From positions 1-43,958 of the forward strand of contig JAFGNN010000003.1 in NCBI GenBank assembly GCA_016926955.1: a DNA stretch of 43,958 bases, in the 5' to 3' direction. Shown one piece after another: positions 35,653 to 39,366 of this stretch. The stretch's first letter is position 1. Each line of letters starts with the position of its first letter. The notes beneath the pieces were generated by a model. That model ran no database searches. It worked only from the letters and a program-made list of their open reading frames with translations, and was not told the origin of the DNA. Source of the DNA: Spirochaetales bacterium. GTDB taxonomy: Bacteria > Spirochaetota > Spirochaetia > Treponematales > UBA12059. The position numbers and the translations under genes are program-made.

Positions 35653-35843
35653 AAACCACGGAGACACGGAGCTTCGGAGTTTCCCATGCCTCGGCGGTCG
35701 CGTCGCGTTGTGCAAAGAAGACCACGGAGGCACGGAGCTTCGGAGAGAAGAGGGAGGGGATGGACCCGAACCTCGGGTTCTTGATTTTCTCTTCTCCCGA
35801 TTCTTATCCTCCCTCCTTGCTCCGTGTCTCCGTGCCTCCGTGG
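35653..35843. repeat. CACGGAG fold-back repeat cluster
   Basis: A 25-27-bp unit (ACCACGGAGRCACGGAGCTTCGGAG) occurs directly at 35653-35679 and 35721-35745. A perfect 16-bp inverted copy lies at 35828-35843 (complement of 35722-35737), next to further CTCCGTG motifs at 35819-35827. The 259-bp stretch between tRNA-Phe and the FliM-FliG gene holds nothing else that I can identify. Dispersed non-coding repeats of this kind (CACGGAG-rich) occur in other bacterial genomes; whether this one is mobile is unknown. Confidence 0.6.
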
Positions 35844-35852
35844 TTGAGCTCG

Positions 35853-37775
35853 TCAATCCTCCTCGCGGGCGATGAAGATCCGGCCTTCCTCCTCGAGGGC
35901 CTTGATGGCTGCGACCACCCGGAAGCCGGCGGCGTCGGCGTCGGAGAGGCGCACGCGGCCGATCGAGGAGAAGGCGGCCTTGAGCCGCTCGCCTTCCGCT
36001 TCGCCCTTGACCTTCGCGAAACGCGCGAACAGCCGCTCGCGCAGGGGCTCCTGCACGACTTTCATGGCCACCAGCATGTCGCGTTCCTCCGCTTTTCCGA
36101 GCACGGCGTCGATCGACTCGTCATCGAGGATGGCGATGTCCTCGAAGACGAACATGCTCCGCTTGATGTTCTCCGCAAGGGCCGGATCGACGCGGTCGAG
36201 CGTCTGGATGACGCGCTTCTCCACCTCGCGCGGCACCAGGTTGAGCATTCCGACGATGGTCTGCACCCCGCCCGCGGCGCGGTTTTCCGCGCCCATGGCG
36301 GCGAGCTTTCTTGCGAGCACGCGGGCGCTCGACGAAAGCACCTCCGCGGACGCTCCCTCGAGACAGCCGATCCGCCGTACTACCTCCGCCTGGACATCCT
36401 CGCCAAGGCGGGGAAGAACAGCGGATGACAGGGCAGGGTCCAGCCACGAGAGCACCAGGGCGACCGCCTGCGGCCGCTCTTTCGAAAGGGAAAGCGCGAG
36501 GTCCTCCGCTTTGGCGCCCGACAGCTCCGCGAATGGCCGCGCGCCTGCCCGACGGGGGGGAAGCTCCTCCGCTCCCGAGGTCGCGCCGTAAAGGAGGCGG
36601 TCCGCGAGCGCTTCCTGCTTTCCTTCGAGCGCCGCCAACGAGGCGCCGAACCCCGCGATCGACGCTTCGACCTTCGCGCCGAAAACCTCGAGGCTTTTCT
36701 GGAGGCCTTCGGTCGCGCCGCGTCCCGAAGCGCCGTCGGAATCCCAAGGCGGCGCCTCGTCCGCTCCGGCGTCGGCGATCACCTCGAAGCGGAGCATCCG
36801 CCCCGAACGCGTCGCGGGTACGCGGAGCGTCCGCACTTCCGCGCCGCCCGAGCGGAGCCGCGCGACGCCGTCGTCGAGCCCCGGCAGCGGCACGAGGCTG
36901 CCCTTCCTGAGGGCGCGGAGCTCCGCCACGGAAAGCCGCGCGCCCGCGGCTATCGCTTCGGCGGACGCAGGCAGCCGCCAGGCTCCGGCCGCGCCGACCG
37001 TATCGCCGCCTTTCCGCGGGAGGCTGTACCAGAAGCCGGCCCGCAGCTTCGGCACAAGCGGCTCGATCAGCATGAAGGGGTAGACCAGGTTGAGGAGGCC
37101 CTTTCGCCCACCGATGACGAGCTCGATCGTCGCGATGACGATCATCTCGGTCGGCGGGACGATCTGGACGAACTGGACGTCGCTCTCGACCTGCTCAAGC
37201 GCGCATTCGAGCTTCTCGATGCCCGACCAGGCATCGGAGACGAGTCCGTACAGCTCGACGAGCGTCGATTCGAGCGCCGCGAACTCAAGGTCAGTCACGC
37301 CGGCCGCGCCGAGCCGGGTCTCCGCGCCGGCCGTCTTCAGCGCCTCATAGTCCGACGGCGCGCCGCTCGCGCCATACGCCGGAGCGGAGGCGGAGCTCGC
37401 GCCGAAAAGCCGCTCGACGAGGGCGTCCGCCGCCACCGGCTCGAGTTCGAGCGTGAAGCGTCCCTTGAGCGGCGCCATGCGCCCGACCGACAGCACGGTC
37501 GGAGTCGGGATCGAGTTCGCGTACTCCTCCCAGGTCAGCTGGTCGACCATCGAGAGCCGTGCCTCGCAGGGCAGCCGGAGCCGGGCAGAGAGAGCGGCCC
37601 CGGCCGTGCGGGCGAAGGTCTCGTGGATGTTTGCCACGGTGCGGATCTGCTCCTTGGTGAACTTGTCCGGCCGCCTGAAGTCATAGCGCTTGACCTGATA
37701 CCCCCTATCGACCGGACCGCGCAGGCCGAGTATTTCCCGGCCCGGCGTGAGGTCTTTCGTCTCGGCGTCGCTCAT
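35853..37775 (-). CDS. FliM-FliG fusion flagellar motor-switch protein
   Basis: This 640-residue protein joins two C-ring components. Residues 28-330 are FliM: the middle domain begins KRYDFRRPDKFTKEQIRTVANIHETFAR, IEPLVPKLRAGFWYSL closes it, and a SpoA domain spans about 260-333. The CheY-binding LSQxEIDxLL motif expected at the N-terminus is absent. A linker with a coiled-coil-like stretch (354-400) leads to FliG middle and C-terminal domains: ERPQ (433-436, in place of EHPQ), MFVFEDI (541-547), and the torque domain to residue 640. The FliG N-terminal, FliF-binding domain is missing. The acidic pair of the torque helix (Asp288/Asp289 in E. coli) aligns with Ala600/Ala601. It is ATGA-coupled to the FliN-like gene. 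Whether it serves a normal flagellum is open. Confidence 0.9.
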   Translation of the reverse strand: MSDAETKDLTPGREILGLRGPVDRGYQVKRYDFRRPDKFTKEQIRTVANIHETFARTAGAALSARLRLPCEARLSMVDQLTWEEYANSIPTPTVLSVGRMAPLKGRFTLELEPVAADALVERLFGASSASAPAYGASGAPSDYEALKTAGAETRLGAAGVTDLEFAALESTLVELYGLVSDAWSGIEKLECALEQVESDVQFVQIVPPTEMIVIATIELVIGGRKGLLNLVYPFMLIEPLVPKLRAGFWYSLPRKGGDTVGAAGAWRLPASAEAIAAGARLSVAELRALRKGSLVPLPGLDDGVARLRSGGAEVRTLRVPATRSGRMLRFEVIADAGADEAPPWDSDGASGRGATEGLQKSLEVFGAKVEASIAGFGASLAALEGKQEALADRLLYGATSGAEELPPRRAGARPFAELSGAKAEDLALSLSKERPQAVALVLSWLDPALSSAVLPRLGEDVQAEVVRRIGCLEGASAEVLSSSARVLARKLAAMGAENRAAGGVQTIVGMLNLVPREVEKRVIQTLDRVDPALAENIKRSMFVFEDIAILDDESIDAVLGKAEERDMLVAMKVVQEPLRERLFARFAKVKGEAEGERLKAAFSSIGRVRLSDADAAGFRVVAAIKALEEEGRIFIAREED

Positions 37776-38289: not shown

Positions 38290-38475
38290 GGTTTCCTCCA
38301 TGCCGCAAAGCCTAGATCGGCGCGGAAAGGCGGTCTTGCACGATCTTGAGGAAATGCGGAGAGGAAACGGCACTCGATTGCGGGCGAAGCGGCGCGGCGC
38401 GAACGCCTCCGCGACTCAGGCTCGCCCGATGCCGCATTGCGGATGCCGGCGCCGGCCCCCCACACGCGGGACCGC

Positions 38476-39366
38476 TCACTTCCTCGCGCGTTCGCGCCAG
38501 GCCCGCGGCTGGAGCCCCATGAGCCTCAGGAAGTAGCGGTTGAAGAAGGAGAGGTTGTTGTAGCCGACCGCGAGCGAAACCTCGAGGATAGAGAGCTCGG
38601 TGTTCTTGAGCAGGACGCAGGCGCGCTCGACGCGCTTGCGGTTGACGTATTCGAAAAGCGGGCAGCCGGCGAGCGCCTTGAAGCGCCTCGAGAAGTCGCT
38701 CGGATTGGTGGCGCAGCGCGTCACGTAGAAGTCGAGCGAGTGCGCCTCGGCGCAGTGCTCCGCGGCCCAGCTCACCGCGTCCTCGACGCGCCAGGGACGG
38801 CCGTCCGGGGCCGCGTGGCGGGGGAAGGCCGGAAGCTCGGGGCGCCCTGAAATGACCGGAACCGCGGGTCGGGGCCAGGCGTAGGGTCGACTCCCCACGA
38901 GCGCCCGGAAACAGAGCGCGAAGAGCTCCGCGACGAGGGCTCCGAGCAGGGTGTCGCGCCATGCGTCATCCGGGCCGGTCTCGGAGAAGAGGGCGGCCGC
39001 GATCTCGCCGGCGCGCGAGAGTTCTCGTGGCTCGAGCCGTGCGACTCGGACGGCGCCAGAGCCGGTCGGTCCGGCCCCCAGCGTCCCGGGAAAACCTGGT
39101 TCGAAGCGGAGCGCGAAGCCCGCGGCGTCGCCGCGTGCGTCCTCCGGAAATCTTCCGTCCGCGGCGATCGCGATGCCGGGAGCCTCGATGAACGGCACCG
39201 TCACCTCGGCGCCTGGCTCCGCGGGGACGTCCAGGGTTCCCCGCTCGAGCACGACGAGGAGTCCTTCCGGCGAGCCGGATCCGGCTTCGGACGGCGCGCC
39301 GCGGAAGCGGGCGAGGGAAAATCGACGCATCGCGTCGGCCGCTCGCGGCCCGATGGAGAAGTCCAC
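38476..39366 (-). CDS. AraC-family transcriptional regulator
   Basis: The product is a 296-residue regulator. The last 100 residues form the AraC double helix-turn-helix: AEAHSLDFYVTRCATNPSDFSRRFKAL, then VERACVLLKNTELSILEVSLAVGYNNLSFFNRYFLRLMGLQPRAWRE. The N-terminal ~190 residues resemble a cupin-like sensor but without motifs that name a ligand. The start is GTG at 39366, with GGAAGAGG about 15 nt upstream, so the exact start is less sure. The gene is divergent from marR and ends 186 bp before the motor-switch operon on the same strand; control of that operon is possible but unproven. Confidence 0.88.
   Translation of the reverse strand: MDFSIGPRAADAMRRFSLARFRGAPSEAGSGSPEGLLVVLERGTLDVPAEPGAEVTVPFIEAPGIAIAADGRFPEDARGDAAGFALRFEPGFPGTLGAGPTGSGAVRVARLEPRELSRAGEIAAALFSETGPDDAWRDTLLGALVAELFALCFRALVGSRPYAWPRPAVPVISGRPELPAFPRHAAPDGRPWRVEDAVSWAAEHCAEAHSLDFYVTRCATNPSDFSRRFKALAGCPLFEYVNRKRVERACVLLKNTELSILEVSLAVGYNNLSFFNRYFLRLMGLQPRAWRERARK

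Follow-up and report, generated by a model that had tools for sequence, protein, structure and literature searches.

Does a protein in which FliM and FliG are joined end to end serve as the flagellar switch of its host, or does it stand beside an ordinary one? The question is raised by one gene, here called FliMG, in the stretch of 43,958 nucleotides from a Spirochaetales bacterium which was analyzed in full and is referred to as the window. The flagellar C-ring is regarded as having a single design, built of FliG, FliM and FliN, and the initial annotation had taken FliMG for the switch itself, with FliM and FliG fixed at 1:1 and the attachment of the C-ring altered.

Frame, domains and fold of FliMG

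ORF reading and Pfam confirmed the single frame with FliM and FliG parts that had been noticed, and placed it on the minus strand, where it runs from 37775 to 35853 without an internal stop; the plus strand of this interval is interrupted by a stop (Table 1).

Table 1. FliMG, its domains and the genes clustered with it, in window coordinates
Feature	Position	Strand	Evidence and remarks
FliMG, FliM-FliG fusion protein, 640 aa	35853..37775	minus	ATG to stop (stop included); Pfam, AlphaFold and VIA-align
FliM middle domain (two PF02154 stretches)	37044..37685	minus	Pfam FliM, E=1.3e-43
Degenerate SpoA (FliM-C) domain, residues ~265-335	36771..36983	minus	hhalign against FliN; PF01052 in relatives
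Predicted long linker helix, residues 349-396 (~48 residues), at the place of FliG-N	36588..36731	minus	AlphaFold
FliG middle domain, residues 424-496, ERPQ instead of EHPQ	36288..36506	minus	PF14841, E=2.5e-16
FliG C-terminal domain, residues 525-635, MFVF hinge retained	35871..36203	minus	PF01706, E=3.4e-20
FliN, stand-alone SpoA protein, 83 aa	37772..38023	minus	PF01052, E=5.7e-22; present at 31/31 FliMG loci
SpoA2, divergent SpoA-domain protein, ~89 aa	38020..38289	minus	hhalign to FliN, E 5.5e-8; 31/31 loci
AraC-type transcription regulator, first gene of the cluster	38476..39366	minus	HTH_18, E=6.2e-19

Pfam gives the order FliM, FliG_M and FliG_C, with FliM matched in two stretches (residues 31–129, then on to about 260). 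TIGR01397 (fliM) aligns to the front part of the protein and TIGR00207 (fliG) from model position 110 onward, and the C-terminal 220 residues, where FliG domains had been seen, do match FliG. The FliM and SpoA domains which had been assigned together to residues 28–333 are both present, although their bounds had to be revised to about 28–260 for FliM and 265–335 for a SpoA-like part. In the HMM search that had been proposed, FliM, FliG_M and FliG_C were matched and the SpoA-like part scored below the Pfam threshold in the window protein. In FliM the C-terminal SpoA domain is the one that pairs with FliN. A family profile of the SpoA-like part of FliMG aligns with FliN SpoA [hhalign, E 4.8e-6 over 51 columns], and PF01052 is matched inside two relatives [G231, 4.6e-7; G011, 2.6e-4]; a uniform scan of 26 full-length members showed that Pfam recognizes the domain in few of them only.

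The AlphaFold model has a mean pLDDT of 68.7, with FliM-M and FliG-M/C mostly at about 80–90. Its two halves are joined by a single predicted helix (residues 349–396), found where a coiled-coil-like linker (354–400) had been described. VIA-align comparison of the model gave Z values of 26.2 to the FliM middle domain [5x0z], 12.0 to FliG-C alone [1qc7] and 11.3 to stator-bound FliG [8ucs].

The FliG domain that binds FliF had been reported missing, and a Pfam scan likewise found no FliG_N (PF14842) in the window FliMG. Weak FliG_N matches occur in 13 of 26 members, all of them on the FliG-M segment where positions were checked. The median PDK-to-EHPQ spacing is 373 residues in FliMG versus 299 + 145 for the separate proteins, which leaves about 75 residues where FliG has about 145; these figures allow only a linker in the place of FliG-N. 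That a FliG-N lies concealed in the linker is thus ruled out, both by the position of the PF14842 matches and by the short spacing.

Distribution, origin and gene neighbourhood

Relatives with the same architecture, which the initial annotation had suggested seeking, are numerous. A search of 39 related genomes revealed nine further full-length fusions and partial ones at contig ends, the identity of FliMG being 77–79% within the genus, 42–46% in other genera and about 25–37% in other families. Using a profile of the fusion-specific middle part, FliMG was detected in at least 23 of 395 genomes of the class, representing 16 genera; it also occurs in at least two genomes outside the class. The loci that were read number 31, in 30 genomes and 13 families of Spirochaetota, and are mostly full length. 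Uniform domain scanning of 26 full-length proteins recovered FliM and FliG_M (PF14841) in 26/26 and FliG_C (PF01706) in 25/26. Among the matches listed in the contig scan, fusions came only from Spirochaetota.

On the minus strand the AraC-type regulator, SpoA2, FliN and FliMG lie in this order in a tight cluster that ends with FliMG. At 31 of 31 loci the order is SpoA2-FliN-FliMG, with SpoA2 and then FliN directly upstream and the partner genes mostly overlapping or abutting. In the window the 3' end of FliN overlaps the start of FliMG by 4 bases, as does SpoA2 that of FliN; SpoA2 starts at an ATG following GGAGG, the mechanical ORF beginning at the GTG at 38373. The partner FliN is nearly canonical, carrying an invariant AGEP...G.E..GIR.T and matching the FliN structures 1yab and 1o6a at about 1e-24. 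For SpoA2 the AlphaFold model is of low confidence and a structure search against FliN gave weak VIA matches (Z about 3), and its assignment therefore rests on profile comparison. The regulator adjoins the operon at 25/25 loci tested (21 upstream, 4 downstream). The operon is an orphan, unlinked to flagellar operons, and no membrane anchor, ATPase or stator gene accompanies it. SctK, SctL and SctN were not recognized, by inspection, in the ORFs neighbouring FliMG.

Within the genus dN/dS is 0.23–0.29 for FliMG and 0.21–0.23 for the partner FliN. Judged from these comparisons FliMG is under purifying selection, and the conservation of its architecture across genera and families, together with the dN/dS values, lies far beyond chance. 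An assembly join is ruled out by fusions in independently assembled genomes (31 loci). The frameshifted copy in one genome (G231) might point to an artefact or a decaying pseudogene, a reading that is barely credible given mostly intact frames in 30 genomes, an invariant operon and dN/dS well below 1. It is near certain that in FliMG a complete FliM core is naturally fused to FliG-M and FliG-C of the FliG2 type.

The FliG half is closer to FliG2 than to FliG1. The fusions cluster in trees, 25 of 26 FliG halves falling within one starred set, and a single clade is tolerated by both halves (p-AU 0.48 for FliM, 0.55 for FliG), in trees whose long branches give weak support for a single origin. 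FliM and FliG may have been joined on one occasion or on a few, and the invariance of the operon argues for a single one.

Several minor observations concern these loci. The G231 copy, in a one-contig genome [L170:7834-9896], is broken between FliG-M and FliG-C into frames of 570 aa and 123 aa that overlap, SpoA2 and FliN being present upstream, and G508 carries two diverged complete FliMG operons [L186:4897-6816, L188:4771-6585]. In two genomes of one genus a protein of about 930 aa with TPR and a transglutaminase-like stretch lies directly before the AraC-type regulator [L042:3656-6460, L050:2238-5015]. In the window FliMG is followed by tRNA-Phe, and between them, at 35715–35845, lies an inverted-repeat element of about 125 bp with ends CCACGGAGGCACGGAG. 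It looks like a MITE/REP-type repeat, similar sequence having 95 matches genome-wide.

The ordinary switch and the sites lost from FliMG

The separate fliM, fliG1 and fliG2 genes that had been proposed as a check are all encoded elsewhere in the same genome: a full FliM together with FliY on contig C69, FliG2 with FliG_N together with FliF on C11, and FliG1 with FliG_N on C83. Since these coexist with FliMG, the claim that it is the switch, with its consequences for stoichiometry and attachment, had to be abandoned; as sole switch FliMG is refuted. That it acts as the flagellar rotor instead of FliM and FliG is what the architecture alone would suggest, and is very improbable in view of these separate proteins, of the missing torque charges, CheY peptide and FliF-binding domain, and of the many relatives which have canonical FliM and FliG without FliMG. 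FliMG is an accessory paralogue, encoded in a separate operon, and coexists with a complete ordinary switch.

Of 28 genomes with the fusion, 27 also encode a canonical FliM as a protein of its own. One FliF was found in 11 of 12 genomes searched and none in G001, and MotA was matched at most once per genome in 26 genomes, PF20560 being a weak detector which gave no match in ten of them. With one FliF, no more than one detected MotA and canonical FliM nearly throughout, the operon is unlikely to be a second motor that brings a membrane ring of its own. A second complete flagellum is likewise unlikely, as no second FliF was found and no second MotA detected. The FliMG cluster probably has no stator of its own, but a divergent dedicated one may exist, considering the ten genomes in which PF20560 matched nothing.

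The stator-interacting residues of FliG are R281, D288 and D289, and FliF is bound by FliG-N, according to recent C-ring structures [PMC11528121]. Torque sites were compared in an alignment of Thermotoga maritima FliG with 27 canonical FliG and 26 FliMG proteins. The position of R281 is occupied by R in 27/27 canonical FliG versus 1/26 FliMG (E or D in 14), its register being somewhat doubtful in three FliMG of the same genus that have a 4-residue insert and gaps around the torque helix. The D288 and D289 equivalents are acidic in all 27 canonical proteins versus 5/26 and 8/26 FliMG, respectively. In the window FliMG all three are lost. The equivalents of K264 and R297 are retained, and so, for the most part, are the MFxF hinge and the EHPQ residues E and Q; within the window's lineage FliG-C has a conserved signature, GRxR....DAA..RV.

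On the FliM side the CheY-binding peptide LSQDEIDxLL was not found in the window FliMG, nor in 30 of 31 FliMG overall. The GGxG loop is replaced in the window protein by a low-complexity insert of about 30 residues; it is lost in the window's family and in G025, and retained in most others including G049 and G107. Joint decay of GGxG and EHPQ was considered as proof of a retained FliM-FliG contact and dropped (raw Fisher p 0.03, 2–3 independent pairs). The FliMG of G526 [L179:2050-3903] retains an N-terminal LTKEDVDGLL, like the CheY-binding motif, and is perhaps the least derived member.

How, then, should FliMG be classified? With FliM it shares the fold of the middle domain, the domain order and the N-terminal PDK..EQ.RT region; unlike FliM it has a degenerate SpoA domain and a covalent FliG tail and lacks the CheY-binding peptide and, in the window's lineage, GGxG. 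FliG-M, FliG-C, the MFxF hinge and the K264/R297 equivalents are common to FliMG and FliG2, the canonical spirochaete FliG, from which FliMG differs in having no FliG-N, in the loss or reversal of the R281 and D288/D289 charges, and in that its FliG part is placed behind FliM. Because it fails the CheY peptide of FliM and the FliG-N and torque charges of FliG, it is a new variant built from both and a member of neither. The engineered FliF-FliG [PMC6079021; PDB 8z4d] and FliM-FliN SpoA [PDB 4yxb] proteins also covalently join neighbours in the C-ring, but these are laboratory constructs of other pairs, whereas FliMG is natural and conserved. No description of a natural FliM-FliG fusion was found in the open-access literature searched (titles and abstracts for related searches), in agreement with the initial annotation. 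That annotation did not include the SpoA2, FliN and AraC-type genes, nor the loss of the CheY-binding peptide and of the stator-contact charges.

Possible roles

FliMG, FliN and SpoA2 most likely form one complex, since they supply every cytoplasmic-ring domain type except the FliF anchor and the set is conserved together. The explanation we prefer, at somewhat short of an even chance, is that FliMG belongs to a separately regulated kit for a C-ring protomer which would co-assemble with, or modify, the flagellar switch. The operon would supply a self-contained protomer in three tiers: FliG-M/C uppermost, FliM below it, and a base of three SpoA domains, those of FliMG, FliN and SpoA2. Through FliM-M, FliG-M/FliG-C and SpoA/FliN contacts it might join or decorate the ordinary C-ring, and that FliMG is swapped into or added onto this ring is suggested because FliM-M, FliG-M, the hinge and FliN stay motor-like. 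FliMG would be unable to bind FliF via FliG-N or CheY-P via FliM-N, and lacks the charges that engage MotA. Insertion under control of the AraC-type regulator would then yield rotor subunits passive to stator and chemotaxis, with the possible outcomes of lower torque, biased switching, altered ring size, or one population of motors that differs, for example at one cell pole.

The duplication of FliG1 and FliG2 in Borrelia is similar in that a second rotor paralogue stands beside the canonical one; FliG1 is, however, an unfused FliG, which includes FliG-N in the present genome (where FliG1, FliG2 and FliMG all occur), while FliMG links FliM to FliG and has a FliN and a SpoA2 to itself. We count as a precedent for co-assembly that Borrelia FliG1 localizes asymmetrically, structural differences between the motors of the poles being a proposed cause of asymmetric rotation [PMC7225975].

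Several points count against this protomer explanation. The operon is unlinked to flagellar operons; with all known input and output sites gone, a role outside the motor fits equally well; the lineage to which the window belongs has a decayed GGxG/EHPQ contact; and the weak detection of MotA by PF20560 leaves room for a divergent dedicated stator. Co-occurrence with flagella is, moreover, to be expected since most members of Spirochaetota are motile.

A possible if doubtful reading is that FliMG, FliN and SpoA2 build a second cytoplasmic ring whose production is conditional. It would be widespread among the Spirochaetota, to which all cases so far belong, and would be either a distinct class of flagellar rotor (for instance in one-pole motors passive to both CheY and the stator) or a free ring, descended from the flagellar switch, with a function other than that of a motor.

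The main rival, somewhat unlikely in our estimation, is that SpoA2, FliN and FliMG self-polymerize into a ring or scaffold outside the flagellar motor, flagellar parts having been co-opted for another task, like the SpoA proteins that serve in type III secretion pods. A full set of C-ring domain types in an unlinked operon would be explained, as would the loss of the anchor, CheY and stator sites alike and the lineage's own FliG-C signature. However, no anchor, ATPase or stator gene goes with the operon, carrier genomes have canonical FliM with one exception, and FliMG still has the MFxF hinge and the FliM core of a motor protein. The type III secretion sorting platform (SctQ and its C-terminal product) likewise has small extra SpoA proteins beside a larger one, but it is without FliG domains, and its SctK, SctL and SctN were not recognized beside FliMG.

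Alternatively, and this we consider unlikely, the three proteins might act as a soluble sink or cap: once the AraC-type regulator is active, they would titrate FliH or export parts, FliY/FliM or stator contacts and thereby stop flagellar assembly or rotation. A nearly canonical FliN, a FliG chain that would be capped for want of FliG-N, and the constant presence of the regulator are all compatible with this, but a simple inhibitor should not need two strictly conserved partner genes, and we know of no inhibitor of such a build.

As it stands, this lineage retains a standard C-ring and has in addition a protomer in which FliM and FliG are covalently linked; it comes with FliN and SpoA partners of its own and is stripped of its contacts to membrane ring, chemotaxis and stator. 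Should FliMG enter the motor, as in the protomer explanation we prefer, it would be a naturally occurring means of adjusting torque or switching through the exchange of rotor subunits, and would bear on the asymmetric running of the two polar motor bundles in spirochaetes, which the chemotaxis pathway does not explain [PMC7225975]. If it stays outside the motor, a new use for flagellar switch parts is indicated. Either way FliMG offers a natural template for FliM-FliG linkage in structural work.

Other FliM-related proteins were met in carriers of FliMG. Extra stand-alone FliM occur in G508 (311 aa) and G520 (343 and 322 aa), and the two genomes outside the class each encode a further FliM-like protein with two SpoA domains [G049:C113:21005-22174, 457 aa; G107:C670:25706-26809, 381 aa], distinct from both the canonical FliM and the FliMG present there.
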